A stretch of 64,000 bases of DNA from positions 213,983 through 277,982 of the forward strand of contig NZ_HE611015.1 in assembly GCF_000236865.1 (NCBI RefSeq), in the 5' to 3' direction. Both the position numbers and the translations under genes were made by a program. Shown here in pieces: positions 19,990-36,537 of the stretch. Numbering within the stretch: the first letter of the stretch is position 1; each line of letters starts with the position of its first letter. The notes under the pieces are model-generated. The model searched no databases, was not told the origin of the DNA, and was given only the letters and a program-made list of their open reading frames with translations. This DNA is from Senegalimassilia anaerobia JC110 (GTDB taxonomy: Bacteria > Actinomycetota > Coriobacteriia > Coriobacteriales > Eggerthellaceae).

Positions 19990-21408
19990 CTATTGCGTCG
20001 ACACGGTTTTGTCCACGATGAGCGGCGTGGTGTTCAAAAGCTGCGAGGTTGCCGTTTTGTCCTCGCCAGAGAAACCGCGCATGAACCTGTCAAAGGCGAT
20101 GCCGATGCTCTCGAAGAAGTTCGGCGCGGGAACATCCTTGCAAGCCACCAGGTCTTGCGTTGCGATGACCTGGTTGCGCTGCTTGAACGTGACGGTTCCA
20201 ACGACCTGACCAGCCTTCACCGAACCGTGCAGCTCGTTGAACTCCACGGTCTGGCTGACGTTGCCGTTCAAGTCGAAGACCTCCACGGCGCATTGCGGAT
20301 CGGAGAACGTTGCGGGCACCGTACGGTCTATCCAGTCATCATGCGCCACTTGAGCCACCAAGGGCACGGAGGCGCCGTTCATCTGCGTATTCTGGTCGCA
20401 ATTGGCAAGCTGATAGGACTTACGGTGTTCAAATACCCACTCAACCAGCTCGTCCGCATCGAAAAAGCGCTGGCTTTCCGACGTCGACCCCAATACGATG
20501 GCGTACAGCTCCTGCCCGTCTTTGTTAACGGCGCCCGCGAACGAAGCGCCGGCCTTCTCGGTGTAGCCAGTTTTAACACCAATGGCATCATCGTTGATAT
20601 CGAAGAAACCGTCGGTGGTTTCAAGGAACACATCGGCAGAGGACCCGCCTCGCTTCACCGTGATAGTGGTCGACCCGCCGCCGACAACCGAACGGAACGT
20701 CTGGTTGGTCATGGCATAGGCAACCACTTTCGCCTGGTCGGCAGCAGTGGAATGCAGGTTACCGTCGTATTGGTCGAAGTCGAGGCCATGCGGGTTCTCG
20801 TAAACCGTGTTCGTGCAACCGAGCTTTTGCGCAGTGGCGTTCATCTGCGCAACGAACGCCTTCACATCGGAATCGCCCGAGGCGGTGCCGCTCGACCGCA
20901 GAGCCGCGCCCACCGATTCGGCGATGGCGATGGCGGCATCGTTTCCCGACGGCACCAACAGCGCGTACAATGCCGTTTTCAGCGTCATGGTGTCGCCTTC
21001 CTGCAAGCCGGCGGAGGACTCGCCCACCGCAGCAGCATCAGCCGAAACGGTGATAGTGGAATCCAAGGACGTCAGGCCGGAGGCAACGGCGTCGAGCGCC
21101 ACCACGCCCGTCATGATCTTCGTGACCGAGGCGATGCATGCGGCATCGTCGGCGTTACGCTCGAAATACACGGTGCCGTTTGTATCCACCACGATCGCGC
21201 GTTCGGCGTCGATGTTCGGGCACTGCGCGACGGCCAAGCCGCGAGCATCAACCGTTTCGCCCATGACGATGTCCGCTTTGCGCACATCGGCGTACGCATT
21301 GCCGACACCGCCGGCGACGGGGGTGAGGGCCAGCACGAATACAAGCACGCACGCTATGGCGCGTGCGTGCTTGTTCAGCCCACTATGCAACGTGAAGCTA
21401 GTCGACAA
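19990..21408 (-). CDS. D-alanyl-D-alanine carboxypeptidase (PBP5/DacF type)
   Basis: 472 residues. Signal peptide with hydrophobic core ending NAYA (about residue 40), then peptidase S11 motifs: SxxK at 94-97 (ASVTKI), SxN (PSGNDAA) and KTG (VKTGYTEKAG), followed by the C-terminal PBP5-like beta domain. It trims the terminal D-Ala of peptidoglycan stems. The start is set by GGAGG at 21418-21422: it touches ATG 21417 but stands nine bases before TTG 21408, so TTG is preferred. The start overlaps none or only the very end of the upstream ACT gene. No C-terminal anchor helix is obvious. Confidence 0.88.
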   Translation of the reverse strand: MSTSFTLHSGLNKHARAIACVLVFVLALTPVAGGVGNAYADVRKADIVMGETVDARGLAVAQCPNIDAERAIVVDTNGTVYFERNADDAACIASVTKIMTGVVALDAVASGLTSLDSTITVSADAAAVGESSAGLQEGDTMTLKTALYALLVPSGNDAAIAIAESVGAALRSSGTASGDSDVKAFVAQMNATAQKLGCTNTVYENPHGLDFDQYDGNLHSTAADQAKVVAYAMTNQTFRSVVGGGSTTITVKRGGSSADVFLETTDGFFDINDDAIGVKTGYTEKAGASFAGAVNKDGQELYAIVLGSTSESQRFFDADELVEWVFEHRKSYQLANCDQNTQMNGASVPLVAQVAHDDWIDRTVPATFSDPQCAVEVFDLNGNVSQTVEFNELHGSVKAGQVVGTVTFKQRNQVIATQDLVACKDVPAPNFFESIGIAFDRFMRGFSGEDKTATSQLLNTTPLIVDKTVSTQ

Positions 21409-21826
21409 TGTACACATCCTCCGCGGAAACGGGCGCGAAGCCGGCATCGGCGAGCTTGCGCTCGATTTCCTCGTCTCCAGATACCTTCAATACGTCGATG
21501 GCGTGCCCGCCCTCGACCGACATGCAGTAACCGTATTCCACGTTGACGCCGCACTCGTCCAAGAACTCGAGCAGCGAGGCCAACCCCCCCGGCACATCCG
21601 GGACGCGAACGGCCATGACCGGCGTGACGGCGGCTCGCCAACCGGCAAGCGTCAACTTCTCGGCGGCTTTAATCGGCGTATCACACAGCATACGGGCCAC
21701 ACCGAAATCCTCGGTATCGGCCAGATACAGCGCGTGCATGTTGACGCCGGCATCCGCGACTGCACGGGTAGCTGCGGCCAGACGGCCCTTTTCGTTCTCC
21801 AAAAAAACGGTGAGCTGGGAAATCAT
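21398..21826 (-). CDS. Double ACT-domain protein (copy 2)
   Basis: 142 residues of two ACT folds (ISQLTVFLENEKGRLAAATRAV and VMAVRVPDVPGGLASLLEFLDECGVNVEY). Same plan as the copy at 16701. It sits 5 bases downstream of paaK copy 2 and should be co-transcribed, a partner arrangement repeated twice in this window. Larger in-frame upstream extension runs inside paaK and is not used; ATG 21826 has AAAGGAGT before it. Confidence 0.88.
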   Translation of the reverse strand: MISQLTVFLENEKGRLAAATRAVADAGVNMHALYLADTEDFGVARMLCDTPIKAAEKLTLAGWRAAVTPVMAVRVPDVPGGLASLLEFLDECGVNVEYGYCMSVEGGHAIDVLKVSGDEEIERKLADAGFAPVSAEDVYIVD

Positions 21827-21831
21827 AGCCT

Positions 21832-23133
21832 TTACTCCTTTCGCAGGTCGATGATGCGCTTTGCCTTGCCCTCGCTGCGCTCGATGGACTTGGGCTCGAC
21901 GAGCTTGATGTCCACGGCGATTTGCAGGTTGCCCTTGAGCTCGGCGGCCAGACGCTTCTTGAGCATTTCGAGCTTGCGGATCTCGTCGAACGGGAACTCG
22001 GGCACGGTCTCGACGCGCAGCTCGACGTGGTCGAGCGGGCCTCGCGTGGTGAGGATGATCTGGTACTGCGTAGCGATCTCGGGGAAGCCGGTGAGCACCT
22101 GCTCGATCTGGGACGGGAACACGTTCACGCCGCGCAGGATGAGCATGTCGTCGGAACGGCCGATGATGCGGTCGATCTTGCGATGCGTACGGCCGCAGGC
22201 GCAGGGCTCGGAGATGATGCGGGTGATGTCGCGGGTACGGTAGCGCACGAGCGGGCAGCACTCGCGCGTGAGCGTGGTGAACACCAGTTCGCCGTATTCG
22301 CCATCAGGCACCGGCTGCAGGGTGTCGGGGTCGATGATCTCGGCGAAGAAGTGGTCCTCGGCCAGGTGCAGGCCGCTCATCTCCTTGCACTCGAAGGCCA
22401 CGCCCGGGCCCATGACCTCGGACAGGCCGTACACGTCGCAGTACTGCACGCCCAGCTTCTCGGCGATCTCGTCGCGCATGCCCTGGCTGCAGGGCTCGGC
22501 GCCGAAGATGCCGGCACGAACCTTCAAATCGGTTGCAGGGTTGATGCCCATCTCGATGGCGGTATCGGCGATATGCAGGGCGTAGGACGGCGTGCACGCC
22601 AGCACATCGACCTGCATATCCTTGAGCATCTGGATTTGACGCTTGGTGTTGCCCGAGGAAATGGGAACGACCGCGCAGCCGGCTGTCTCGCCGCCTCTAT
22701 GGGCGCCCAGGCCGCCGGTGAACAGGCCGTAGCCGTAGGCGATCTGCATGGTGGCGTTTTCGTCGCAATCGCAGATAGCAAGGCCGCGCGCAAAGCACTC
22801 GCCCCAATGCTTCAGATCGTTTTCCGTGCACCCGACGACCGTGGCCTGACCAGTGGTGCCGGAAGAGGCATGCAAGCGCACGACCTTGGATCGCGGCACG
22901 GCGAACAGGCCGTCAGGATAGTTGTCGCGCATGTCCTGCTTGAGGATGAACGGGAACTTCGTAATGTCCTCGAGCGTTTTCAGATCGCCAGGTTCGACGC
23001 CGGCGTCCTTGAAGCTCTTTTGATAGAAAGGGACGTTGTCATACGCGTACTGCACGCACCACTTCATGCGCTCGAGCTGCAAATCGCGCAGCTCCTCACG
23101 TGACATCGTTTCGATTTCCGGCTGGAAGTACAC
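21832..23133 (-). CDS. paaK: Phenylacetate-CoA ligase family enzyme (copy 2)
   Basis: 433 residues from GTG 23133. Motifs mirror copy 1: LHASSGTTGQATVVGC, FGAEPCSQGMR, DVYGLSEVMGPGV, YRTRDITRI, and the ending IERSEGKAKRIIDLRKE. The two copies differ widely in sequence, so they are not a recent duplication; different arylacetate preferences (phenyl, hydroxyphenyl, indolyl) are plausible. It heads the minus-strand unit that continues through ACT, dac, FHA, iorAB to gluQ. Confidence 0.92.
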   Translation of the reverse strand: MYFQPEIETMSREELRDLQLERMKWCVQYAYDNVPFYQKSFKDAGVEPGDLKTLEDITKFPFILKQDMRDNYPDGLFAVPRSKVVRLHASSGTTGQATVVGCTENDLKHWGECFARGLAICDCDENATMQIAYGYGLFTGGLGAHRGGETAGCAVVPISSGNTKRQIQMLKDMQVDVLACTPSYALHIADTAIEMGINPATDLKVRAGIFGAEPCSQGMRDEIAEKLGVQYCDVYGLSEVMGPGVAFECKEMSGLHLAEDHFFAEIIDPDTLQPVPDGEYGELVFTTLTRECCPLVRYRTRDITRIISEPCACGRTHRKIDRIIGRSDDMLILRGVNVFPSQIEQVLTGFPEIATQYQIILTTRGPLDHVELRVETVPEFPFDEIRKLEMLKKRLAAELKGNLQIAVDIKLVEPKSIERSEGKAKRIIDLRKE

Positions 23134-23210
23134 CTTTCTCTTACCTTTCTTTGTGCGCGGCGCCTGGCGTGCGGTGGGCGCGTATCGCCGCTTTAATATG
23201 AAGTAACCCG

Positions 23211-25577
23211 CTAGCTTCGATCCGGACCCTTCAAGATAACCTCGTTGATGGGATCGTACACGCTGGCGAACAGGTTTTGGCGCACGATGTTTCCGTTCAC
23301 GTCCTTGACCGTACGCGTCACCTCGATGGTCGAACCGTCGGTGCCGCGCGTTTTCACGTAGCTGGTGCCCGGCGCAAGGGTATCATCCACTTTGGTGGTG
23401 GTCGAATACTTCTTGCCCGCCTCCCATTGACCGGTTTCGGTGGTTACCTGATAGCCGGGATCGACTCCATACAGTGTAGCGGTTACCGACCCGACTTGGG
23501 TGGAAACCTTTACCAAAACATCGCTGGAGGTGTCGTTTCGCCACACAAGGTCAAGTTCGGGGTACGAGACGGCCGCATCGCGTCCGGCCGGATAGCTGGC
23601 GATGTAGAGCGAATGATTGTGGCGCTCGACGATCGGAAGACCGGACTCATAAACCGCATCGAACACCGTAGTGGCAACCTGGCAGATGCCGCCGCCCACT
23701 GAATCGGTGTACTCGCCATCTATGATGGCACCCGCTCCCAGAAACCCCTTCTCCTCGTTGCAATCCCCCGTGGTCCCGTTGTACGACCACGTCTCGCCGG
23801 ATTTGCAGATGGAGTTGTCGAGTATCTGGGAGACCAGCTCGATATTGTGGTTGCGGTTCTCGGTGCCTTGGCCCGTGGTATAGGTGGTGGTGAAGGTGCC
23901 GATGGGACCGACCACACCTTTATCGACGGCCTCTTGGAAGGCGAGACGCTGAGGCATATCTTCGGCATCCACCTCGATCGCGGGAGCCTGCTGTGCCGGG
24001 GTAACGCTATCCCCTTGCCCGAACAACGCAGAAGACAACGCTTCGGCGGCATCCGACACATCGGGGAGCTTGCCTTGCCCATCGGTGGTGACGCTTACCT
24101 GGCCGGACTCATCGGTCTCGAAGCCGACGCCTGAGAGCGAATCGCCCTCAGCCTGACGGATGCCCGATGCCATGGCCGACTTGGATAGCTGTTGGTCGAT
24201 ATAGGGACGCAAACGCCAGCCATCCCCCGCCTGCTCCACGCACGTGGATACCCAGGCGCCGACCTCGGAGGCAGTTGCCTGCCATGTATGACCGCCAAAC
24301 TGGAAACGCGCACCCCCGGCAAGCGCCGAGGTGACGTCCTGAGCCAGCTGAGTAGCGGCTTCGGACGATATGCGCACGGGGGTGTACTCGGTATGCGCGA
24401 CGATACGCCCATCGGAGAAGCCGAGCATGGTGTCACCGAGAAGGCCGGCCAGCGTTTGCCGGTTGACCTCCCAGCCGTCATTGCCCTGCACCACATAGGC
24501 CACGCCGCCGGAAACCTTCACATCGTAGTCCACACGGGCCTGCCCGATGGCCGCATCGATGCCCGAAGCAAAGTCCTCAAGCGCCCCTTCATCGAAGGAA
24601 GGGTCCACTTGGATGCGTTTGCCGAACAAACCCGCGCCCATGCGCGCGAGCACGCCGCCGTCGGAGCGCCCCACGGCAAGCGCCTGCTGGGCAAGCTGGC
24701 CGGAATCCAGCGACGCCCCCAACTCCGCGCCGGTGGTCTGCCACGCCTGCTTCGAAGCCATGGCCTCGTCCACCGCCATCTGCTCGGCAAGCGCCGCATC
24801 CTGCTGGTTTTGAGCCGCAGCGGCCTCGTCGGTTTGCTGAGCCGCCTCGTCGGAAGCGAACACCGTGGCGCTAGCCTGCTGAAGCGGCTGCGCGTAGGCT
24901 TGGTCGAGCGCTTGCTCGATCTCCTGGGCGCTCAGCCCGGACACATCGATATCGCCGACCTTGACGCCGGAGTACGCGCGACCAGCATGGGAAACCCCAT
25001 CGACGGCGCAAACGACGACGAGCGCGATAGCGCACACCGACACGATAAGCGCGGGCCTGCTCTTCCGAACAAGCTTGAACCAAGCGCGAAGCAAGGCGCC
25101 TACCACGCGCCCAATGGCACGTACAAGGGTGGCAAGAACGCCGAACAGCAAGGAAAGCACGCTTCCGGCAGCTGATGCAATGGCGGACCCGCCGCCAGAA
25201 CGCGCTTGCCCGTGGTCGCGAGCACCGGAAGGACGCGAAGAGGTGCGCTGCTGCTTGGTCCACAGATTTGGCTGCACGCCAGAACGTTCGGTCCCCGCAG
25301 AATGCATGCGACGACCGGACCGCTGAGCGGTTCGGGCCGTCGATGACGTTCTATTCCCTTGTCTTAGCGCACAAGGCGAACCCGCACCCGCGCAGGAGCG
25401 GCCGGATGCATGTTGATAAGATCCGCCGGAGGAGGATTGCGCGGCCGCATGTCGAGGAGATCCGTCGCTGCTCCTGGGCCTTCCGGAGTTTACGCGAGCG
25501 TAATCACCTGTACGCGTTTGCGAGCCAGGACGCGAAGCACCCCCTCGCGAAGACCTGCTATGCTGCGGAGCACTCAC
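23211..25577 (-). CDS. VanW-family cell-surface protein
   Basis: 788 residues from GTG 25577, which overlaps the pgsA stop (GTGA). Residues 1-130 are a Ser/Arg/Gly-rich basic tail, followed by a hydrophobic region (about 130-160) and a transmembrane helix (about 177-196, LIVSVCAIALVVVCAVDG). Outside the membrane come two peptidoglycan-binding-like repeats with Gln/Ala-rich insert, then the VanW domain (about 560-720; SYNGTTGDCNEEKGFLGAG, GGGICQVATTVFDAVYESGL, ERHNHSLYI) and a G5-like ending. Related YoaR/VanW proteins are linked to the envelope, function not established. The very long cytoplasmic tail is unusual. Confidence 0.88.
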   Translation of the reverse strand: MSAPQHSRSSRGGASRPGSQTRTGDYARVNSGRPRSSDGSPRHAAAQSSSGGSYQHASGRSCAGAGSPCALRQGNRTSSTARTAQRSGRRMHSAGTERSGVQPNLWTKQQRTSSRPSGARDHGQARSGGGSAIASAAGSVLSLLFGVLATLVRAIGRVVGALLRAWFKLVRKSRPALIVSVCAIALVVVCAVDGVSHAGRAYSGVKVGDIDVSGLSAQEIEQALDQAYAQPLQQASATVFASDEAAQQTDEAAAAQNQQDAALAEQMAVDEAMASKQAWQTTGAELGASLDSGQLAQQALAVGRSDGGVLARMGAGLFGKRIQVDPSFDEGALEDFASGIDAAIGQARVDYDVKVSGGVAYVVQGNDGWEVNRQTLAGLLGDTMLGFSDGRIVAHTEYTPVRISSEAATQLAQDVTSALAGGARFQFGGHTWQATASEVGAWVSTCVEQAGDGWRLRPYIDQQLSKSAMASGIRQAEGDSLSGVGFETDESGQVSVTTDGQGKLPDVSDAAEALSSALFGQGDSVTPAQQAPAIEVDAEDMPQRLAFQEAVDKGVVGPIGTFTTTYTTGQGTENRNHNIELVSQILDNSICKSGETWSYNGTTGDCNEEKGFLGAGAIIDGEYTDSVGGGICQVATTVFDAVYESGLPIVERHNHSLYIASYPAGRDAAVSYPELDLVWRNDTSSDVLVKVSTQVGSVTATLYGVDPGYQVTTETGQWEAGKKYSTTTKVDDTLAPGTSYVKTRGTDGSTIEVTRTVKDVNGNIVRQNLFASVYDPINEVILKGPDRS

Positions 25578-26218
25578 CTTACTCGCCCCTTCGCTTCAAG
25601 CCGACGAGCCTTCTGCATCTTGCGGTACCCGGCCAACACATAGTACAGCGTGGTGAACAGGCCAAGCAGCAAGCCGGCGTACACGAACCAAATGCCCCAA
25701 GAGCATGCCTCGGAACCGAAGCCCGGCAACCAGGATGCTTCAAACCAACCAAGCCCACCGATGAGGGGCATGTTCAGCAACAAGCCCGCGAACCCGACGA
25801 ACAAAAACGTGGTGGCCACCTTGCCGGGATAGATGACGGCGACGCGCTCGTGATAGCGCTTCAGCAGATACGCTCCCCCGACAAGGAGCATCAGATCGCG
25901 CCCCAAAACGACGACGACGATCCAGATAGGCAAACGGCCCACGAGCATAAGGCCGATGACGCCGCAGCTCATGAGGATCCTGTCCACCGCAGGGTCGAGC
26001 AGCTGCCCGAGCTTCGACACGCAGTTCGTGCGCCGCGCAAGCTGGCCGTCGATCCAATCGGTGCCTGCCGCCAGCGCGAACATGAACGTGGCGAGCAGAT
26101 CGTAGCCGTTGAGCAACAGCACCATGTACACCGGCACCATGCACAACCTGATGAAGGATATAACGTTGGGAATGGTGAAGATGCGGTTAGTGACTGCTTC
26201 GGTTTTCTGAGATGACAT
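25574..26218 (-). CDS. pgsA: CDP-diacylglycerol-glycerol-3-phosphate 3-phosphatidyltransferase
   Basis: 214 residues from ATG 26218 (preceded by GGGGTAGGGA). The CDP-alcohol phosphatidyltransferase signature is complete: Asp54, Asp57-Gly58, Ala61-Arg62, Gly71, Asp75, Asp79. Several membrane helices follow. It makes phosphatidylglycerol phosphate; other CDP-alcohol transferases (cardiolipin or inositol) share the motif, so the exact product is inferred from similarity of the N-terminal NRIFTIPNVISFIRL. Coupled to the VanW gene by a four-base overlap. Confidence 0.88.
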   Translation of the reverse strand: MSSQKTEAVTNRIFTIPNVISFIRLCMVPVYMVLLLNGYDLLATFMFALAAGTDWIDGQLARRTNCVSKLGQLLDPAVDRILMSCGVIGLMLVGRLPIWIVVVVLGRDLMLLVGGAYLLKRYHERVAVIYPGKVATTFLFVGFAGLLLNMPLIGGLGWFEASWLPGFGSEACSWGIWFVYAGLLLGLFTTLYYVLAGYRKMQKARRLEAKGRVR

Positions 26219-26332
26219 GTGTTCCCTACCCCGTGGCCTGCAACGCAAGACGGGGCGCCGAAAGCGCCCCGCGCAAGTTTCGAATGCGATTATACTAACC
26301 TACCGCGCATCGAAAGGTTACGGTTGGGCTAC

Positions 26333-26713
26333 CTATTCACCGGCATCTTCACGTTTGGGAGCGGCTTTGGGCCGCTCGGGGATGCTGAAGGTGTGCACGC
26401 GCTTTTGCCGCGATACGGTCTCATAGGTGGGCAGCATGGTAAGGCTGCCCTTGGGGCACTCATAGGTGCAGCTGCCGCATTGGACGCAGCGGAAGTGGTC
26501 GATGGCCCAGGTACGGGCCTTCTTGTCAACTTCGATAGCACCGCAAGGGCAGCGCTTGACGCACAGGCTGCACAAGATGCAGGTGGACTCGTCGACCTCC
26601 ACATGACCTTTCAAGCCCGCGGGAGGCTCGGGTTTCACCACGGGGTACAGCACGGTCTCGGGCTTCTTGAACAGCGAGCCGAACGTCATTTTTCCAAGTT
26701 TGAATCCGCTCAT
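26333..26713 (-). CDS. Ech-type hydrogenase, polyferredoxin-like 2x[4Fe-4S] subunit (EchF/NuoI-like)
   Basis: 126 residues with two 4Fe-4S motifs: CILCSLCVKRCP (about 47-58) and CVQCGSCTYECP (about 77-88). It passes electrons from soluble ferredoxin to the small subunit. The N-terminal GSLFKKPETVLYP resembles NuoI/HycF/EchF starts. Last gene of the six-gene hydrogenase operon, 4 bases behind the large subunit. Confidence 0.9.
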   Translation of the reverse strand: MSGFKLGKMTFGSLFKKPETVLYPVVKPEPPAGLKGHVEVDESTCILCSLCVKRCPCGAIEVDKKARTWAIDHFRCVQCGSCTYECPKGSLTMLPTYETVSRQKRVHTFSIPERPKAAPKREDAGE

Positions 26714-26717
26714 CGCT

Positions 26718-27806
26718 CTACCTTTCCGTGCAGCTGATGCAAGGGTCGATGGTCAGGATGATGTTGTTCACATCAGCCAGATCGCAGCCCTTCAGGGCGA
26801 TGGTCATGCCTGCGATGTTCTGAGAGGTTGGCGTGCGCATGCGCATGCGCTCCAAGAACTTCGTGCCGTTGCCGCGGGCATAGTAATAGCACTCGCCGCG
26901 AGGCTGCTCGAGCACGTTGCAGGCCTCGGCGCCATCGGCGGGATTGCCCTTGACCTTCACTTCGATATCGCCGGCGGGCATTCGGGAGATGACCTCTTCG
27001 ATGATGTCGATGGACTGCAGCACCTCAAGGCAGCGCACCTGAACGCGCGCATAGCAATCGCCGTCGTTGGACAGGATGGGCTGGAACTCGGAAAGCTTGC
27101 CGTACCAGCCGTTGCCGAGCATGCGCACATCGTAGTTCACGCCCGAAGCGCGGCCGAACGGGCCGACCATGCTTTCCGCGACGGCGTCGTCGTGGCTGAC
27201 GTAGCCGACACCCACCAGGCGGTTCTTCACCGAGGTATCGGTGAGCAGCGTGTTCATGATCTGGCGATACTCGTCCTTCAGGCCTTCGAGGACCTGCTTG
27301 ATGTATGCGAACATGGCATCGTCGACATCGCGCACAACGCCGCCGACCTTGACCACGGATAAGATAACGCGCCCGCCGGTGGTCTTCTCGAAGATGTCGA
27401 GCACGCGCTCGCGCAGGCGCCAGCAATGCATGAACAGGCTCTCGAAGCCGAAGGCGTCGGCGGCAAGGCCGAGCCACAGGACATGCGAGTGGATACGCGA
27501 GAGCTCATGCCACATGACGCGCAGCGCCTGGGCCCTGTCGGGAACCTCCACGCCCATGAGCTGCTCAACCGTTTCAGCATAGCCCATGGAATGGCCGAAG
27601 GCGCAGATGCCGCAGATACGCTCGGCGACATAGATGAACTGGTTGTAGTCGCGCGTTTCCACGAGCTTCTCAAGGCCGCGATGCACGAAGCCGATCTGGG
27701 GCATGGCCTCGATGACCTTCTCGTCCTCAACGACGAGGTCCAGATGAAGCGGCTCGGGGAGAACCGGATGCTGCGGTCCGAAGGGGATGACGGTTGCCTT
27801 TCCCAT
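26718..27806 (-). CDS. Ech-type hydrogenase, [NiFe] large catalytic subunit (EchE-like)
   Basis: 362 residues from ATG 27806 (GTG 27815, overlapping the previous stop, is the alternative). Both nickel-ligand pairs are present: RICGIC (Cys65, Cys68) and DPCISC (Cys356, Cys359), which separates this from NuoD, where they are lost. The motif GxHxGxEK-like QIGFVHRGLEKL is conserved with complex I. The protein ends with Arg exactly three residues after the last cysteine, so there is no tail for an endopeptidase to remove. Catalyses H+ reduction or H2 oxidation on the cytoplasmic side. Confidence 0.93.
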   Translation of the reverse strand: MGKATVIPFGPQHPVLPEPLHLDLVVEDEKVIEAMPQIGFVHRGLEKLVETRDYNQFIYVAERICGICAFGHSMGYAETVEQLMGVEVPDRAQALRVMWHELSRIHSHVLWLGLAADAFGFESLFMHCWRLRERVLDIFEKTTGGRVILSVVKVGGVVRDVDDAMFAYIKQVLEGLKDEYRQIMNTLLTDTSVKNRLVGVGYVSHDDAVAESMVGPFGRASGVNYDVRMLGNGWYGKLSEFQPILSNDGDCYARVQVRCLEVLQSIDIIEEVISRMPAGDIEVKVKGNPADGAEACNVLEQPRGECYYYARGNGTKFLERMRMRTPTSQNIAGMTIALKGCDLADVNNIILTIDPCISCTER

Positions 27807-27807
27807 G

Positions 27808-28854
27808 CTATTCACCAGCCTTTCCGTTTTCCTGCGCTTGGCGCTGCTTCTCCTCGAACGCGGCGCGCACCTTGGCTGCCTTCTCGGGATCCATGTTCTT
27901 CAGACGCTCCTCGAGCACGGCGACCTTCTCATCGTGCTCGGCCTGAGCGGTTTCCTGGCGGGCGCGCGCATCGAGCGCGGCACGCACCTTGGCTGCCTTC
28001 TCGGGGTCGAGTTGGGCAAGCTTGGCGTCGAGCTCAGCTTGCTGCTCGGCCGTTGCCTGACCGGTGGCTCGCTGGCTTTCCAGCTTCGCCTCGTTGGCGA
28101 GCGCACCGCGAACAGCTTGGGCCTTCTCAGGCTCCATACCCGAAAGCTTGGCCTTCGCGGCCATTGCCGCGCGCACCTTGGCGGCCTTCTCCGGGTCCAT
28201 GGCGGCAAGCTTGGCCTCAAGCGCCTCGTCGTAGACCTGCGGGCGGGCTGCCTGCGCTTCGGCCTCGGCGCGCTTGGCCTTCGCGGCGAGTGCGGCCTTG
28301 ACGCGGGCGATCTTCTCGGGGTCGGCGCCGGCCATCTTCAGCTCGATGTCCTCGGCGTTCGCCGAAGGGGCCACGCCGGAGACCTTGTCCTTGGCGTCGG
28401 GGTGGGACGTGACGAAGCTTGCGTTTGCCGCCGCCGCCTGGCGGGCGCGCTCGGCCTTGGCAGCCGCCGCCTTCTTGGCCTTCTCGCGGGCGGCCTTCTG
28501 AGCCGGCGAGATGATGGTCATGGGGCTGGGCTGCGCCGTCACGTAGAAGTTGCCGCCGAAATCGATGGCGATGTCGCGGACGTTCACGCCGAACAGGTCG
28601 TGGATCTCGTTCTCGAATACGAACGCGGCGATGAAGCGGTCGGTGATGCTGGGGATGGGGATCTCAGGCGTGACGCCTTTGATGGTGAAGACCTCGAGCA
28701 CGCCGTCTTTCATAAACGTGTACTGCACGTCGATGCCTGCTTCGGTGTTGACGGCGAGCACCTGCACGAAACGGTGGCCCTCCGTCTGCATACGCTCGGA
28801 CAGGGCGGGCAGGCCCTCGACCGAGATCTCCTGGTACTGTGCGGGTATTGCCAT
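27808..28854 (-). CDS. Ech-type hydrogenase, 30-kDa subunit (EchD/NuoC-like) with long repeat tail
   Basis: 348 residues from ATG 28854, 5 bases after the small-subunit stop. Residues 1-115 are the complex-I 30-kDa domain with the signature region FENEIHDLFGV (80-90). The remaining two thirds are an Ala/Lys/Glu-rich helical tail in which DPEKAAKVRAA recurs: DPEK/EPEK at residues 178, 220, 241, 283 and 322, on a spacing near 21 residues or twice that, with LxAKLAxM preceding several. EchD and NuoC of other organisms lack such a tail as far as I know. Predicted to be a long charged helix or coiled coil. Confidence 0.88.
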   Translation of the reverse strand: MAIPAQYQEISVEGLPALSERMQTEGHRFVQVLAVNTEAGIDVQYTFMKDGVLEVFTIKGVTPEIPIPSITDRFIAAFVFENEIHDLFGVNVRDIAIDFGGNFYVTAQPSPMTIISPAQKAAREKAKKAAAAKAERARQAAAANASFVTSHPDAKDKVSGVAPSANAEDIELKMAGADPEKIARVKAALAAKAKRAEAEAQAARPQVYDEALEAKLAAMDPEKAAKVRAAMAAKAKLSGMEPEKAQAVRGALANEAKLESQRATGQATAEQQAELDAKLAQLDPEKAAKVRAALDARARQETAQAEHDEKVAVLEERLKNMDPEKAAKVRAAFEEKQRQAQENGKAGE

Positions 28855-28859
28855 GGCGC

Positions 28860-29300
28860 TTACGCCTCCTTCCCGTTCTTCATTGCGGCACGCTTCTCCT
28901 CCAAGATGCCCACGGCCTCGACGACCGCATCGATGATGGCCTCGGGGCGCACCGCGCAGCCCGGAGCGTACACGTCGACGGGAATGGCCTGATCGACGCC
29001 GCCGATAACGTTGTAGCAATCGTGGAAGATGCCGCCGGAGCATGCGCAGATGCCGCATGCCACGACCACCTTCGGCTCGAGCATCTGTTCGTAGATCTCC
29101 TTGACGACCGAGATGTTCTGCTCGTTGACGCTACCCGTGACCAGGAAGATGTCAGCGTGCTTGGGGTTGCCGGTGTTGATCACGCCGAAGCGCTCGGCGT
29201 CGAAGCCGGGGCACAGGGCCGCCAGAACCTCGATATCGCAGCCGTTGCAGCTTGATGCGTCGTAGTGGATGACCCACGGCGATTTCGCGAAATAAGCCAT
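28860..29300 (-). CDS. Ech-type hydrogenase, small subunit (EchC/NuoB-like)
   Basis: 146 residues with the proximal 4Fe-4S cluster ligands: SSCNGCDIE (Cys18, Cys21), ACGICACSGG and YAPGCAVRPE. Homologous to NuoB/HycG/EchC. It relays electrons from the ferredoxin-like subunit to the NiFe site. GGAGG precedes ATG 29300. Confidence 0.93.
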   Translation of the reverse strand: MAYFAKSPWVIHYDASSCNGCDIEVLAALCPGFDAERFGVINTGNPKHADIFLVTGSVNEQNISVVKEIYEQMLEPKVVVACGICACSGGIFHDCYNVIGGVDQAIPVDVYAPGCAVRPEAIIDAVVEAVGILEEKRAAMKNGKEA

Positions 29301-29310
29301 TGCGACCTCC

Positions 29311-30180
29311 TTACAGGTACATAAGGACGGCGATGTTGATGCCGCCGGCCACCAGGGCCACCGCCCACGCGCTCTTGAGCATGAGCTGCCACTTCACGCG
29401 GGCGAAATTGTTGTCGATGAGGATTTCCAGGAAGAACGCGGCAAGAGCCGCGACCACGGCCACAACGAGGGAGACGGGGTTGCCCCACACGAAGAACAGG
29501 CCGATCCACCCGAGCGCCAGGACGTTCTCGCACCAGTGCATGACCTCCACCTTCGCGAGCGTGCGACCGCTCATCTCGGTGGTGACGCCCTTGACGAGCT
29601 CCTGGTGGGCGTGGTGCGAATAGCTCAGATCGAAGGGGCTTTTGCGCATCTTGATGGTGAGGATGAACAGGAAGCCCAGGAAGGCGATCCAGGTGGCGCC
29701 GATGGCCGGAATCTCCAGGCCGAACGCCGCGCAGCTGTCGAACGAGCCCGTGGCCAGGAAGAACGCCACGGCAATGAACAGGCTCATGGGCTCTTCGGCC
29801 ATGATCTGCAGCGCCTCGCGGGCCGCACCGACCTCGGAGTAGGGGCTGCGCGTGCAGTACGCCGCCAGGATGAAGAACAGGCTGGAGAGCGTGAGCACGA
29901 ACACGGACAGCAGCAGGTTCCCGCCGCCGAAGAAGATGCCGCCTGCCAGGATGGCGAACACGAGGGCGCAGGTGATGTAGGTGCCCTCGACGTTGTTCAC
30001 CGCCGCACGGTCCTTCTCCAGAAGCTTGCGCACGTCATAGTAGGGCTGCAGGATGGGCGGGCCGACGCGGCCCTGCATACGGGCGGACAGTTTACGATCA
30101 AGGCCGGCGAGCAGGCAGCCGACCACGGGTGCGAGCACGGCGAAGGCGATGGTGCCCACGATGATGGGGATCAAATACAT
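29311..30180 (-). CDS. Ech-type hydrogenase, membrane subunit EchB/NuoH-like
   Basis: 289 residues, about eight membrane helices. Complex-I subunit-1 features: RKLSARMQGRVGPP after the first helix, EEPMSLFIA, and KSPFDLSYSHHAHQELVKGVTTEMSG corresponding to the quinone-site loop of NuoH. It anchors the hydrogenase module and is part of the ion-pump path. GGAAGGGAAG precedes ATG 30180. Confidence 0.92.
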   Translation of the reverse strand: MYLIPIIVGTIAFAVLAPVVGCLLAGLDRKLSARMQGRVGPPILQPYYDVRKLLEKDRAAVNNVEGTYITCALVFAILAGGIFFGGGNLLLSVFVLTLSSLFFILAAYCTRSPYSEVGAAREALQIMAEEPMSLFIAVAFFLATGSFDSCAAFGLEIPAIGATWIAFLGFLFILTIKMRKSPFDLSYSHHAHQELVKGVTTEMSGRTLAKVEVMHWCENVLALGWIGLFFVWGNPVSLVVAVVAALAAFFLEILIDNNFARVKWQLMLKSAWAVALVAGGINIAVLMYL

Positions 30181-30195
30181 GAGACACTTCCCTTC

Positions 30196-32115
30196 CTAGA
30201 GCAGCCCGCACAGCGTGGCGATAGCTGCGCAGAACCCGACGACGATGATGATGCTGGTGGCCCAGACGCCCACCGGGGTGATCTTGGGCTCGCCGAAGAC
30301 GCCCTCCATGTACCAGTTGCGGGACGTGGCCATGGTCTCGCCGGACAAGGAGTTGCGGAACGTGCGGTTGGCGTTGTTCTCGCTGACGCCGGCAAGGTAG
30401 ACGGGAACCTGCTTGACCTGCTTGGAGCCCAAGCCGCCGAACAGGACCACGAACACCACGGCCGAAAGCAGGGCGGCAACCCAGAGGTTTGCCTGGCTGA
30501 CGCCCTGGGAGCACACGCCGAACACGTCGAAGATGTAAGGCTCGACCAGGAACGTGGACAGGACGGGCAGGCCTACGCAGCACAGCATGGAGAGCACGGC
30601 CATGACCATGAGCGCGATCCACTCGCTGCGATGCACGGTGGTCTCGACGTTCAGGGGATGGGCGGCGATACCCGAGAGCTTGCCGAGCCACTTGGCCCAG
30701 AACAGGAACGTGGCGGCAGAGCCGAAGCCCAGGATGAGGATGAGGGCGACGTTGCCGGTATCGGCGAAGCTGACGAGCGTGCCCCACTTCGCGATAAGCA
30801 TGCCGAACGGGGCCACGAACATAATCATGATGCCGGCCATCATGAAACGGGCCAGACGCGGCATGCGCTCGAACATAAGGTCCATGTCCTCAATGTCGCG
30901 GCTGCCGATATGATGCTCGGCGGTACCCACGCACAGGAACAGGAGACTCTTGGCCACTGCATGGAACAGCACCAGGAACGTTGCCGCCCATACGGCTTCG
31001 GGGGTGCCCACGCCGGCGCAGGCCACGATGAGGCCCAGGTTGGCGATAGTGGAGTATGCCAGCACGCGCTTGGCGTTGGTCTGCGAGATGGCCATGAAGC
31101 TGCACAGCAGGAAGGTCAGTCCGCCCACGAGGATGGTCATGACAGCCGCCACGGGGCACACCAGGAAGATCGGCGAGAGCTTGATGAGCAGGAAGACGCC
31201 GGCCTTGACCATGGTGGACGAATGGAGAAGCGCGGAGGTGGGAGTAGGTGCCACCATAGCGCCGAGCAGCCAGGTGTGGAACGGCATCTGAGCCGCCTTG
31301 GTGATGCCGGCGAACGCCAACGCCACCGCAGGCAGGGCGACAAGCGCCGGAGCCATGACACCGACGGCGATGAACTCCACGAGCGAGAGCGTGTCCATAG
31401 TCAGCGCGATGGCGAACAGCGCCACCAGAAAGCCGATGCCGCCAGCCAGGTTCATGATGATCTGGCGAAACGCGTTGTTGATGGCCTCAGGCGTTTTGGT
31501 GTAACCGATGAGCAAAAACGAGCACACCGTGGTGATTTCCCAGCCGGTGAACATCCACAACAGGTTGTTGGAGAACACGATGACGTACATGGCGGAGAGG
31601 AACAGGAACATGAGGGCGAAAAACTTCGGACGGCGATCCTTGGCATCGGCAGGCTCATGAGCCTGAAAATCCTCCATATAGCCCAAAGCGTAGATGCAGA
31701 TGCCGCTGCCGACGACGCCGATGATGAACGTAGTGACCAGCGTAAGGCTATCCAGGTACAACCCATATTGCACTTCGATGCCATGGGCGACGAACACGTC
31801 GAACACCAAAGAGCCCACAACCTGCACCACGGCAAGCACGCATGCCAATACGTTCTTGTACTTCACGCCGAAGCACAAGATGACCGCGGCGATGACCAAG
31901 CCGATGAGCGTGCATACGATATCGATCGCACCTGAAGAGAACTCGATTCCGACCCACGGCGTGCCCAGGTTGGCCAATACCAGCCAAACAGACCCGAATC
32001 CGATGATCACCGCTGAAGAGCACACGATGACGCGTCGCGCCGTCTCGTTGCCCACGAGCAGCAGCACACCGGCCACGAGCAACGGGAACAGAATCAGAAA
32101 CCCGATGAGAGCCAC
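30196..32115 (-). CDS. Ech-type hydrogenase, antiporter-like subunit EchA/NuoL-like
   Basis: 639 residues from GTG 32115, chosen because AAAGGGGGAA ends seven bases before it; the frame stays open much further upstream without meaningful sequence. About 14-16 helices of the proton-conducting antiporter family: FTGWEITTVCSFLLIGY, GITKAAQMPFHTWLLGAMVAPTP (conserved Lys), HSSTMVKAGVFLL and the FHAVAKSLLFLCVG helix. First gene of the operon and the probable ion-translocating subunit. Confidence 0.92.
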   Translation of the reverse strand: MALIGFLILFPLLVAGVLLLVGNETARRVIVCSSAVIIGFGSVWLVLANLGTPWVGIEFSSGAIDIVCTLIGLVIAAVILCFGVKYKNVLACVLAVVQVVGSLVFDVFVAHGIEVQYGLYLDSLTLVTTFIIGVVGSGICIYALGYMEDFQAHEPADAKDRRPKFFALMFLFLSAMYVIVFSNNLLWMFTGWEITTVCSFLLIGYTKTPEAINNAFRQIIMNLAGGIGFLVALFAIALTMDTLSLVEFIAVGVMAPALVALPAVALAFAGITKAAQMPFHTWLLGAMVAPTPTSALLHSSTMVKAGVFLLIKLSPIFLVCPVAAVMTILVGGLTFLLCSFMAISQTNAKRVLAYSTIANLGLIVACAGVGTPEAVWAATFLVLFHAVAKSLLFLCVGTAEHHIGSRDIEDMDLMFERMPRLARFMMAGIMIMFVAPFGMLIAKWGTLVSFADTGNVALILILGFGSAATFLFWAKWLGKLSGIAAHPLNVETTVHRSEWIALMVMAVLSMLCCVGLPVLSTFLVEPYIFDVFGVCSQGVSQANLWVAALLSAVVFVVLFGGLGSKQVKQVPVYLAGVSENNANRTFRNSLSGETMATSRNWYMEGVFGEPKITPVGVWATSIIIVVGFCAAIATLCGLL

Positions 32116-32690
32116 GCTGCTTCCCCCTTTCATTTTCCTTGCTAGCCGAATCCGACCCCGCGAACCTTCTAGCGCCACATAAAGCCGAACGTGCCCGGAC
32201 GTCGGGCACGGATAGCACTCTACCATCCCACCGGCCGTTTCCCCCGCAAGCATAGAGGACGGACGGTATGCTCGGTAAATGGGTCCGTTTTGACAACAAA
32301 ATACCGGTAGACGGCATATCGTGGGCGCAATGATTCCCCATTCCGAAGATATTGGGGTACAAGCGGAACGTTTTTCGCAGCCACCCGAATCCTGCATGAT
32401 GGGATACCGCCCCTACGCCCGAATCCGAGGGATGCGCATAAATGACGATTCCATGACAGAGAGGAAACGCCCGTTCGTACGCCAATGGATTTGCTAGGAT
32501 AACCCACCGTCATGTTTCAATCGCTTGCCAACATATTCCACCGTATCCGCCGCACGGACTCAATGCTGTGCGCGCCATGCTCGCTGCCCGCCTTCGATAC
32601 CTGCAGCCTCACCTCCATGCTCATATGATGCGTGCGCGCAAACCGCGCTGATCGAACACGTTTCATATCGGCTAATTGGAGGATCTTCTT
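32116..32690. other. 575-base divergent intergenic region before the hydrogenase operon and the MFS gene
   Basis: No credible gene. Frames at 32220-32513 and 32525 upward are short or shadow the MFS gene. A perfect 8-bp hairpin, CGTGCCCG (32190-32197) with CGGGCACG (32203-32210), stands about 75 bases before the hydrogenase start and would be in its leader. The length allows promoter control for both neighbours; I recognise no known riboswitch class. Confidence 0.5.
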
Positions 32691-34151
32691 TTGAACAATG
32701 CAAGCTCCGCCGCAACACACCGTGTGCGCATCACGGGTATTGTGGTCTTCGGCGCCTTCTTGGCGCTGCTCAATCAAACCGTCATGTCCCCCGCCCTGCC
32801 CGTCATCATGGCCGACTTCGCCATCGATGCCTCCACGGCGCAGTGGATCATGTCCATATACCCTCTGGTCAGCGGCATCATGGTGCCGGTTTCCGCCTTT
32901 TTGATCGACCGTTTCACCACCCGTCAGCTGTTCTTCGCCGCAACGGGGGCGTTTGCCGCGGGAACGGCGCTTTGCGCAGCTGCCCCGACGTTTTTCCTGC
33001 TGATCTGCGGACGCGTGCTGCAAGCGGCCGCATCCGGCGTGCTGCTTCCGTTGGTATCGGTGGTTCCCATGCTCGTGTTTCCCGTGGAGAAGCGCGGAAC
33101 CGCCATGGGCATGGCCGGCATCGTGATGTCGGCAGGTCCCGCGATCGGGCCCGTCGTGGGCGGGGCCATCATCGACGCGTACGGGTGGCGCGCATGCCTG
33201 GGCTGCATCGTGCCGTTGGCCCTTGCTTCGCTTGCCTGTGCCGTGTTCTTACTCGATAACGTTGGGGAAGGAAAGCGACCGCATCTCGATGTGCCGTCCA
33301 TCGCGCTTTCCACCGTGGCGTTCGGAGGCATGCTGTACGGCTTCTCCAGCGCATCTTCGATGGGTTGGACGAGCCCGGTGGTACTCGGATGCATCATCGC
33401 AGGCGTGGCCTGCCTGGTGCTGTTCGCTCGCCGTCAGCTGCACTTAGAGGATCCGCTGCTCGACCTGAGATGCCTGAAATCAAGCGATTTCGCCGTGGCC
33501 GCCATCGTCGTCACCCTTATCAACGCGGCATGCCTGGTCACCAACACCATTCTGCCCATTTTGCTGCAGACCGCGATGGGCGCGACGGCGCTGCAGACGG
33601 GCATGGCGATGCTTCCCGCCGCCGCGGTCGGCATCCTTATCAGCCCCATCTCGGGCGTGGTATTCGACAAGTTCGGCCCGCGAGCCATTTCCGTGGGCGG
33701 TTTGACGCTCATGACCGTGGCGCTTTTCGCTCTCTCGCGCATGGATGCAAGCTGCTCGATCGTGATGGTGGCGGTGTTGTGCGCAGCGCAGGCTGCAGGT
33801 CAATCGTTGGCGAACATGCCGGTCAACACCTGGGGCATCAACGCGCTTGAGAACAGCCAGATCGCCCATGGCAACGCCATCGCCAACACCGGACGTCAGG
33901 TTGCAGGCGGCCTAGGGACCGCCATCATCGTCACGCTTATGACAACGGTCACCTCTAGCGCGGCTCTACAAGGCGGCGCAACCGTCGAGGCGACGGTTGC
34001 CGGCACGAGCGCAGCTTATATGGCATGCGCCGCTATCGGCTTGGTGGCTTTGGTCTTCGGCGTGCTGAAGATCCGCGTTGCAAAGGAGACGCGTCAGCAG
34101 CCTCATGTGATTCGCGACACTGCCGCCGAGCGCTCGAAGGCCGCAAGCTAG
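32691..34151 (+). CDS. MFS drug exporter, DHA2 (14-helix) family
   Basis: 486 residues from TTG 32691; GGAGG (32678-32682) sits eight bases before it, so TTG 32676, which overlaps the SD, is rejected. Motif A-like loop DRFTTRQLF (about 75-83), motif C GPAIGPVVGG, and around 14 hydrophobic helices resemble EmrB/QacA-type proton-driven drug efflux. It stands alone and ends at a terminator. Substrate unknown. Confidence 0.88.
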   Translation: MNNASSAATHRVRITGIVVFGAFLALLNQTVMSPALPVIMADFAIDASTAQWIMSIYPLVSGIMVPVSAFLIDRFTTRQLFFAATGAFAAGTALCAAAPTFFLLICGRVLQAAASGVLLPLVSVVPMLVFPVEKRGTAMGMAGIVMSAGPAIGPVVGGAIIDAYGWRACLGCIVPLALASLACAVFLLDNVGEGKRPHLDVPSIALSTVAFGGMLYGFSSASSMGWTSPVVLGCIIAGVACLVLFARRQLHLEDPLLDLRCLKSSDFAVAAIVVTLINAACLVTNTILPILLQTAMGATALQTGMAMLPAAAVGILISPISGVVFDKFGPRAISVGGLTLMTVALFALSRMDASCSIVMVAVLCAAQAAGQSLANMPVNTWGINALENSQIAHGNAIANTGRQVAGGLGTAIIVTLMTTVTSSAALQGGATVEATVAGTSAAYMACAAIGLVALVFGVLKIRVAKETRQQPHVIRDTAAERSKAAS

Positions 34152-34200
34152 CTGCGCACCGGCGCCGAATAGCGCAACGTGCACCTTCCCGATAACCACA

Positions 34201-34252
34201 ACGGCCCGGATCGCAGAATCGACGACGAACTGCAATCCGGGCCGTCTTTTCA
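34201..34252 (+). terminator. Terminator after the MFS gene
   Basis: ACGGCCCGGAT (34201-34211) pairs with ATCCGGGCCGT (34235-34245), followed by CTTTTC. The loop is large (23 bases) but the stem is perfect. Confidence 0.75.
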
Positions 34253-34359
34253 CAGAAACGTGAGTCTAGCCCCCTGCTTCCAGGATGCATGCTGAGCAAC
34301 GCGCATATCTGAGGGCATCCGACCGATAAGGCGCCGACAACGACCCTTATCGCGTTACC

Positions 34360-36537
34360 TTACTTCTCCTTCGCCGCCATGATCTTCGAAAGGGCGTCGA
34401 TGAGCTTATCCGAATCGATAGGTTTCGTCAGATGCCCGTCCATACCGGCTTCTCGGCAGCGAACCTTATCCTCGGTGAAGGCGTTTGCGCTCATGGCCAC
34501 GATGGGGATGGTGCGCGCATCCTCGCGTGAAAGCGAACGAATGGCACGCGTTGCCTCATACCCGTTCATATTGGGCATCATGATGTCCATGAGAATCAAG
34601 TCGAACGTGCCGGCATCGGCCTGCTCGAACGCGCTGAGCGCCTTGAAGCCATCATCTGCGCACGTCACCTTCGCACCCGCCTCGGTAAGAATGAATAGAG
34701 CGATCTCACGATTCAGGTCGTTGTCCTCTGCCAAAAGGATATTCATACCGGCGAGCTTCGCCTGATCGTGCGCATGGTGCTCGTTCAGCGTTGACGATGC
34801 TTCGAAATCTATGGTCAAGGGCAAGGTGATGGTGCAAACCGTGCCCTCGCCCAAGCGGCTCTCATATACGAGGTCCCCATCCATGAGCTCGGCAAGCTGC
34901 TTGGCGATGACGGTTCCCAATCCCGTACCCGTTACATGCTCGGCATCCTTTCGCTGCTCACGTGAAAACGGGTCGAACACTCGATTTTGGAACTCTGAGC
35001 TCATGCCGATGCCGGTATCGGCGATGACGAACCTATACGTTGCCGCACCGCCTTCTTGCGCATGCTCCGAGCAAGTAACGCGTACCGCACCGCCCGGCTT
35101 GTTGTATTTCACCGCATTACTGGCGATATTCATGATCAAGCGCTTCAGATGCAGCGAACTCGCCATGACCACGGGATGGGATATGCCGCTTCGATCGCAG
35201 CTGATGGTCACACCGAGTTGCGCGGCTTGATGTTCCATGATCTGGCAAATCTCCTCGACGACTTCAACAAGGTTGGTAGGCTGCAGGTCCAGCTTCACCT
35301 CGCCGCTTTCGAGTTTGCTCATATCAAGAACTTCGTTGACCAGTTCGGAAAGTATCCCCGACGCCGTCCAGATCTTCTGGCGACACTCGCGTTGTTTAGC
35401 AAGATCCCCATCATAGGCATTGGCGATTTCCACCATGCCGCGGATGCCGTTTATGGGCGTGCGGATGTCGTGGCTCATGCGCTGCAGAAACTCGGTTTTC
35501 GCCCTGTTCGCGCTCTGCGCCTGATGTGCCGACATGGCAAGACGATCGGCGTACTCGCGCTCTTGCAGCACAAGCTGATGCAAGTGCTCGTGCTCGGATT
35601 TGCGCCGAGAGAAGGCGAACACGGCAACCACGAAGCAATACAACGCGACGGAAACCAACACGAGCCCCGCCACTTCGCCCAAGCAAGACGAAACCGGTAT
35701 GAACGTGAAAACATAGTAATCACGAGCCTTGTCGAGGGAAGCGATATAGGGTTTCGACCCTGAAATCAACAGCGTGGTCTCACCGACCTGGCAGCGGCTT
35801 TTGATATCCTCGACCACCTTCGCATCAACGGGATCAAGCTGGATATCCCCGCTCATCTGATCGGAAACCATGTTGGCCGCCACAACCGAGCCATCGGATT
35901 CCACCACGATATCGCCGCTGCCACGCACATCGTAACCCGCCAGCATATTCTGCAACGAAAGCATATAGCGATTGGAAAATGCCTCCGAAGTATAGTAGCC
36001 CGCAACAACCATGCCCGCCTGGTCGATGCGCGCCGCGCAACCTACGTCGATATACGACCCGTCATCGAAAACGATGCGTGTACCGTAGACTTTACGGGGA
36101 TGATCCACCACATCAAGGGCTACATCAGCTGTAATCTCGTGCTGAACCATGTCGAATGTGACGTTGTTGTTGGAATATGAGCTTACCAGCTGGCCGTCAA
36201 CGGTCAAAACGAACGCGTTTGAAACGCCAAGCAGCCGTGCAGCACGCTCAAGATCGGCTTGGTCGACCTCATCTCCACCATAGGAGATGCTATGAGCAAG
36301 CTGAGAAGCGTTCTCAAGCGCAAGAACCTGGCTTGTCATAGCTACGGAATCATTGAAAGAATCATAGGTCAGGCTCTGCGATTTCGCAAAACCAACCACA
36401 TTGCCGGAGCGCTCGGCAGCTTCCCTGAGCACCGAACCGAAACCGAACATCCCGCTCACGCAAGCCACCATAACGCCGACGACGATGGCGATTGTCCAGA
36501 AACGTCCGCCTAGTTGATATTTTTTAGCCACGCACAT
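34360..36537 (-). CDS. Hybrid sensor histidine kinase with C-terminal receiver domain
   Basis: 725 residues. Helix 1 (about 13-33), an extracytoplasmic sensor region (about 40-280, Cache-like), helix 2 (about 285-310), HisKA with phospho-accepting His356 (RMSHDIRTPING), HATPase with N and G boxes (NIASNAVKYNKPGG, DTGIGM, GTGLG), and a receiver with Asp651 (LILMDIMMPN). Organisation is of the ArcB/BarA type without an Hpt domain. The 5-prime end overlaps the upstream solute-binding lipoprotein by 14 bases, suggesting the two form one sensory unit. No DNA-binding regulator is adjacent. ATG 36537 or GTG 36531 could start it. Confidence 0.92.
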   Translation of the reverse strand: MCVAKKYQLGGRFWTIAIVVGVMVACVSGMFGFGSVLREAAERSGNVVGFAKSQSLTYDSFNDSVAMTSQVLALENASQLAHSISYGGDEVDQADLERAARLLGVSNAFVLTVDGQLVSSYSNNNVTFDMVQHEITADVALDVVDHPRKVYGTRIVFDDGSYIDVGCAARIDQAGMVVAGYYTSEAFSNRYMLSLQNMLAGYDVRGSGDIVVESDGSVVAANMVSDQMSGDIQLDPVDAKVVEDIKSRCQVGETTLLISGSKPYIASLDKARDYYVFTFIPVSSCLGEVAGLVLVSVALYCFVVAVFAFSRRKSEHEHLHQLVLQEREYADRLAMSAHQAQSANRAKTEFLQRMSHDIRTPINGIRGMVEIANAYDGDLAKQRECRQKIWTASGILSELVNEVLDMSKLESGEVKLDLQPTNLVEVVEEICQIMEHQAAQLGVTISCDRSGISHPVVMASSLHLKRLIMNIASNAVKYNKPGGAVRVTCSEHAQEGGAATYRFVIADTGIGMSSEFQNRVFDPFSREQRKDAEHVTGTGLGTVIAKQLAELMDGDLVYESRLGEGTVCTITLPLTIDFEASSTLNEHHAHDQAKLAGMNILLAEDNDLNREIALFILTEAGAKVTCADDGFKALSAFEQADAGTFDLILMDIMMPNMNGYEATRAIRSLSREDARTIPIVAMSANAFTEDKVRCREAGMDGHLTKPIDSDKLIDALSKIMAAKEK

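Follow-up and report, generated by a model that had tools for sequence, protein, structure and literature searches.

The NuoC/EchD-like subunit of an Ech-type hydrogenase in Senegalimassilia anaerobia JC110 ends in a long helical tail with five copies of a short repeat unit, and the same unit is found on the NuoI-like subunit of the hydrogenase and on NfnA in related bacteria. The unit is a real, conserved and lineage-specific module on a known enzyme type, and its presence on NfnA as well was unexpected. It is probably an undescribed docking or clustering module for ferredoxin metabolism. No paper on this tail, nor anything specific on the Ech hydrogenases of Coriobacteriia, was found among the searchable papers. 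The window analyzed here is a stretch of 64,000 nucleotides of contig NZ_HE611015.1, and all positions without a genome or locus label refer to it.

The tailed gene and its hydrogenase operon

The NuoC/EchD-like gene (27808..28854, minus strand) encodes 348 amino acids followed by a stop codon, and its translation from 28854 to 27808 starts with MAIPAQYQEI. PF00329 (Complex1_30kDa) covers residues 19-93 with an E-value of 1.6e-5, above the gathering score. The folded NuoC-like domain was delimited by Pfam, AlphaFold2 and Foldseek to residues 1-114 (28513..28854, minus strand). The initial annotation had placed the end of a NuoC/EchD-like domain near residue 115 of a gene going on to residue 348, and this is confirmed by the Pfam match and by the AlphaFold2 model, in which the fold is confident to about residue 100 and helices follow. 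The gene is present in a single copy in the genome (2.4 Mb). An open frame of 401 amino acids runs antisense across the whole gene (27787-28992, plus strand), as expected in high-GC DNA.

The gene is the fourth of an operon of six, all on the minus strand and all with Pfam matches. In order, these are the EchA/NuoL-like antiporter-type membrane subunit (30196..32397; PF00361, E = 1.2e-49), the EchB/NuoH-like membrane subunit (29311..30180; PF00146, E = 6.2e-37), the EchC/NuoB-like small subunit (28860..29300; PF01058, E = 2.5e-27), the tailed subunit, the EchE/NuoD-like [NiFe] hydrogenase large subunit of 365 amino acids (26718..27815; PF00346, E = 2.8e-52 and PF00374, E = 1.8e-13) and the EchF/NuoI-like 2x[4Fe-4S] subunit (26333..26713; Fer4 domains). 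The last 8 bp of the NuoC-like gene are shared with the start of the NuoD-like gene. When the ORF list of positions 20000-36000 was read, no NADH-oxidising module (NuoE/F/G) was found in the operon, and its neighbours were a phosphatidyltransferase-like gene and an MFS transporter-like gene.

As opposed to NuoD of complex I, the large subunit keeps both Ni-binding cysteine pairs (two CxxC motifs found by reading, RICGIC ... DPCISC), and the complex is therefore placed, judged from its sequence, among the group 4 [NiFe] hydrogenases that have a six-subunit Ech core. It is like Ech (EchABCDEF; group 4) in its six-gene order, these cysteine pairs, its 2x[4Fe-4S] subunit and the lack of an NADH module. 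However, known EchD proteins are short, that of Thermoanaerobacter kivui Ech2 being only 13.9 kDa (PMC9356269), whereas EchD of the window carries a stem and repeat units. Ech-type hydrogenases are ferredoxin-using enzymes (PMC9356269).

Anatomy of the tail

About 234 residues make up the C-terminal tail, in which Ala, Lys and Glu are abundant. Its stem helix is followed by five units of ~25 residues each, with variable linkers. The unit consensus is LEAKLAGMDPEKAAKVRAAMEAKAKK, that is, LEAKLAxMDPEKAAKVRAAMxAKAKK plus a linker of variable length. The stem helix (residues 117-150, PAQKAAREKAKKAAAAKAERARQ...; 28405..28506, minus strand) was recognized from the AlphaFold2 helix, the tails of homologues and its dN/dS (see below). 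The units, all on the minus strand, are unit 1 (residues 172-195; 28270..28341; 25.1 bits), unit 2 (residues 212-236; 28147..28221; 45.0 bits), unit 3, an EPEK variant (residues 235-257; 28084..28152; 22.6 bits), unit 4 (residues 275-300; 27955..28032; 44.6 bits) and unit 5 (residues 314-338; 27841..27915; 47.4 bits). Among 2000 shuffles of the tail that preserved its composition, the highest score was 10.7 bits. The unit profile was trained on homologues together with the window protein itself, so the independent check is the occurrence of the unit in other species. Weak matches of the tail to Pfam FliG_M, PABC and SieB lay far under the cut-offs and were discarded.

The DPEK/EPEK motifs had been listed at residues 178, 220, 241, 283 and 322, and all five positions are exact. 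The period near 21 residues that had been given with them does not hold: the spacings are 42, 21, 42 and 39, which is a period of ~40 with one 21-residue step.

A frameshift joining an unrelated gene had been named as a possible source of the tail. No break in codon use was found: for Ala, Lys, Glu, Arg and Val, the tail is like the neighbouring hydrogenase genes (GC3 0.83 vs 0.76-0.91). In addition, a same-genus relative has an open homologous gene with 84% identity, and a frameshift fusion was thus ruled out. Tandem Repeats Finder reported no DNA tandem array over the tail, and therefore the repeat is conserved at the protein level and is not a recent DNA expansion; moreover, identical residues are often encoded by different codons.

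AlphaFold2, run with 63 homologues, gave a confident NuoC fold followed by a chain of helices that restarts at each DPEK. These helices mostly have a pLDDT of 74-97 (mean pLDDT of the model 85.9), and the pTM of 0.43 would fit helices lacking a fixed arrangement. By Foldseek the core domain resembles NuoC of complex I (E-values of 2e-6 to 3e-4 to NuoC-type chains) and subunit K of the archaeal membrane-bound hydrogenase (MBH) and sulfane sulfur reductase (MBS), the matches including 6cfw_K, 6u8y_K and 7z0s_E. For the tail, no counterpart was found among solved structures, since the PDB sequence and fold matches were to the NuoC domain or to chance helices.

Distribution among relatives

A matching gene was found in 128 of the 138 genomes of the family and in 185 of the 299 genomes at the order level. 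Named relatives with the gene include Ellagibacter, Gordonibacter, Adlercreutzia, Slackia, Eggerthella sinensis, Paraeggerthella, Enorma and Collinsella. Tail sequences were read at 116 loci, and unit numbers were scored in 148 distinct complexes, on both the NuoC-like and the NuoI-like subunit where available.

Rather than being strain-specific, the tail is shared by most Eggerthellaceae and by members of the Coriobacteriaceae such as Collinsella. The initial annotation had known of no such tail in Ech, Hyc or Nuo complexes. This is consistent with the outgroup complexes, which lack it, and with the small T. kivui protein; however, the tail is widespread within these two families. No units were present in the short tails of the outgroups, which were families f3, f5, f6 and f8 of the order, G361 from a different family within the class, and a homologue from an archaeon. 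The stem helix directly behind the core domain (P-E/A-QKAAREKAAKIAAAKAAKE) is found in almost every Eggerthellaceae homologue, including those without units.

A count of repeats across Eggerthellaceae homologues had also been proposed. Between 0 and 5 units were found on the NuoC-like subunit of a complex, two and one being the commonest numbers and the genus of the window having the highest. When the units on the NuoC-like and NuoI-like subunits were counted together, the commonest state was 2+0 (47 of 148 complexes), 1+0 was nearly as common (40 complexes), and 1+1 was found in 12. In lineages g12, g34, g39 and g42 no full unit was found on either subunit although the complex is present, and the module is therefore dispensable there.

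Two problems in the records should be mentioned. At L229 (Collinsella tanakaei YIT 12063) the NuoC-like tail seems to be in a shifted frame, with a unit in another frame, and at L046/L190 a run of N breaks the NuoC-like tail. The repeats may have caused errors in assembly.

The unit on other proteins

In many Coriobacteriaceae and several Eggerthellaceae lineages, the NuoI-like 2x[4Fe-4S] subunit encoded in the same operon ends in up to three copies of the unit. The EchF/NuoI-like subunit of the window itself has no repeat.

A half-unit helix (EEEKAAKEAAKKAKVEAAMKAKAE) is often seen on the NuoI-like tail where the NuoC-like tail has no units (L061, L069, L070, L107, L109, L111 and L112, and L094 and L095 of families f6/f5). 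It may be an ancestral form. A strict rule of at least one unit per complex failed, as 14 complexes have neither a unit nor a half-unit on either subunit; these include outgroups and one likely frameshifted record.

Genome G060, with a hydrogenase contig that matches Adlercreutzia faecimuris, gave a stray unit match, which was traced to the C-terminal end of an NfnA-like protein (NCBIfam PRK06222, sulfide/dihydroorotate dehydrogenase-like FAD/NAD-binding protein). An NfnB-like gene of the glutamate-synthase type lies directly downstream of the unit-bearing NfnA. The unit was present on 10 NfnA proteins (loci L242-L251, e.g. L236:2016-3212) of three genera (g9, g24 and g33; Adlercreutzia- and Parvibacter-type genomes) with 26.6 to 38.0 bits. 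Shuffle controls on two of these proteins gave 29-37 bits for the units against at most 8.5 bits in 2000 shuffles. The other 20 NfnA proteins that were read lack the unit, as is the case in most of the other Eggerthellaceae genera covered, and mostly have a short ERKGA-type end. The NfnB-like protein adjoining unit-bearing NfnA (L236:3216-4973) has an Ala/Glu-rich acidic C-terminal extension of its own. NfnAB, the NADH-dependent ferredoxin:NADP+ oxidoreductase, reduces NADP+ with NADH and ferredoxin together (PMC9304861). No NfnA match was found in the window genome or its genus, and a cluster of hydrogenase and Nfn is therefore excluded as the role of the tail there.

Whole-genome scans with the unit profile of 66 Coriobacteriia genomes (15 + 51) gave 99 matches (41 + 58). 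By coordinates, all of them fall within NuoC-like, NuoI-like or NfnA genes, a few NuoI assignments (e.g. G097) being made by operon position rather than from the read sequence; no other gene in these genomes contains the unit. In the window genome the unit is confined to the NuoC-like gene. A scan of 396 genomes of the phylum gave matches in only 20, all in the family of the window and the family of Collinsella (f10). Altogether the scans covered 460-odd genomes, some of them twice.

Conservation, charge and selection

The unit is kept in well over 100 complexes. In 97 tail units that were extracted, the P, K, V, R and A positions are near invariant, and the conserved pattern consists of L, L, M, V and M together with fixed K, R and small A residues. 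Net charge is not conserved in the same way: it is nearly neutral in the window tail (+5 over 232 residues), ranges from -14 to +10 depending on lineage in the intact tails of other complexes, and is not uniformly positive in the units, some NuoI and NfnA units being near neutral or acidic.

Over 15 close pairs, the pooled dN/dS was 0.09 in both the units and the stem, compared with 0.17 in the core domain and 0.22 in the linkers; the comparison is biased toward the units, which were picked by profile similarity, although the contrast between units and linkers within the tail is large. On a tree of the core domain from which the tails were left out, and in which support is weak on many branches, at least 33 changes in copy number were counted, and the presence of units changes at least 10 times on the NuoI-like subunit and 8 times on the NuoC-like subunit. 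Thus, the module has been redistributed repeatedly between two neighbouring subunits. A constant sequence with varying number and position is as expected for a modular docking element.

Comparison with RsxC/RnfC

RsxC/RnfC of Proteobacteria belongs to a membrane redox complex, one that uses ferredoxin in other bacteria, and it also ends in helical DPxKAA repeats that are rich in Ala and Lys and vary in number. In Erwinia amylovora RsxC, a 40-amino-acid C-terminal repeat is present in 0-5 copies among strains, and no function was given (PMC10587187). E. coli RsxC (L241:2920-5139) has a C-terminal DPRKAAVEAAIARAKARK repeat with six DPRKxAVxAAIARAxAxK copies that resemble our unit. However, they are offset by one residue in their hydrophobic register and lack the LxxKLAxM first helix. 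Homology was not supported: the unit profile scored -0.2 bits, 443 of 2000 shuffles scored as well, and the hhalign probability was 3.4%. On these comparisons the RsxC repeat is better considered an analogue than a demonstrable homologue, and its likeness to the unit in position, composition and copy-number behaviour is a possible case of convergence.

Possible role of the unit

The property common to the three carriers is their membership of ferredoxin-linked redox complexes. We propose that the tail would act as a flexible arm, with a charged stem helix leaving the NuoC-like subunit beside the ferredoxin-oxidising end of the hydrogenase. Beyond the stem would come short helix-turn-helix units, one to five in number and separated by variable linkers, each an N-capped 'LxxKLAxM-DPEKAxKVRAAM' hairpin recognising a partner common to ferredoxin-linked enzymes, and the unit would be placed on the NuoC-like subunit, the NuoI-like subunit or NfnA according to lineage. 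Most likely it would keep a soluble redox partner, in the simplest case ferredoxin, at a higher local concentration, or else cluster ferredoxin enzymes by unit-unit pairing. To this reading, a mobile helical module docking a partner common to ferredoxin-linked enzymes and serving as an arm that raises the local level of redox partner or clusters enzymes, we give slightly less than an even chance. The analysis demonstrates how the tail is built, that the unit is conserved and confined to three protein families, and that it is under purifying selection, whereas binding by the unit, ferredoxin or another unit as the shared partner, and faster electron delivery are the parts that we infer. A comparable arrangement exists in NDH-1, also a complex of the NuoC/D/I type, in which ferredoxin is recruited by flexible accessory parts at the ferredoxin side; here the part in question, NdhS, is a separate folded subunit.

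A tether or organiser for a soluble partner had already been suggested in the initial annotation. The unit on the ferredoxin-side subunit and on NfnA speaks for this idea, but simple electrostatic capture of an acidic ferredoxin by the near-neutral tail is not supported. The near-zero, lineage-variable charge and the conserved pattern of the unit thus favour specific recognition over general electrostatic capture. The unit on NfnA is no straight pointer to ferredoxin because, in solved structures of NfnAB, NfnA is the NADH-side subunit and ferredoxin docks on NfnB. More tentatively, the unit could be a docking module that is transferable between proteins and dedicated to the ferredoxin metabolism of Coriobacteriia, and it would mark the hydrogenase and NfnAB for a shared partner or for co-assembly and so channel ferredoxin electrons.

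It is also conceivable, though unlikely, that the units pair with each other as helical-hairpin bundles and join two hydrogenases, or hydrogenase and Nfn, into dimers or arrays, contact with ferredoxin being indirect. Complexes most often have two units in total (2+0, with 1+1 in a further 12 complexes), the helix-turn-helix units have a conserved hydrophobic face, and Ech dimers exist, T. kivui Ech2 having been read as a dimer (PMC9356269). However, a single unit is nearly as common, three to five units occur too, and the T. kivui dimer, with its small EchD, forms without such a tail. The lineages that have no unit at all speak against both the docking and the pairing reading.

Two further explanations leave ferredoxin aside. 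The tail could serve the hydrogenase only, by stabilising the peripheral arm or by recruiting a Ni-maturation factor or assembly chaperone; the majority of unit copies are indeed on the hydrogenase complex and the stem helix is near-universal in Eggerthellaceae. We consider this very unlikely, as the copy number is very labile and the unit is also found on NfnA. NfnAB is a soluble enzyme without nickel, and so a membrane anchor, a membrane-specific role or a dock for Ni maturation is unlikely to be the common role of the unit. Largely neutral expansion would make the tail a functionless, low-complexity Ala/Lys-rich helical linker that grows and shrinks. The frequent changes in copy number, the lineages without units and the high-GC genomes, which favour Ala-rich tails, are in line with this, but the dN/dS of the units is lower than that of the core domain and less than half of that of the linkers (with some bias, as units were picked by conservation), and the same sequence is present on two other proteins and nowhere else in the 66 Coriobacteriia genomes. 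Neutral expansion is thus highly improbable.

Whether ferredoxin in anaerobes is channelled between enzymes or diffuses freely is hard to test, and a short, conserved and movable unit on only two kinds of ferredoxin-linked complexes offers a direct experimental handle. The unit can also serve as a sequence marker for further ferredoxin-partner proteins in gut Coriobacteriia such as Eggerthella, Gordonibacter, Adlercreutzia and Collinsella.

A second hydrogenase-like large subunit

Many of the genomes encode a second, distant hydrogenase-like large subunit with 36-39% identity in an open frame of near 590 amino acids (e.g. G053:C1:138957-140045 and G222:C1:430209-431303). It is perhaps HycE of the formate-hydrogenlyase type.
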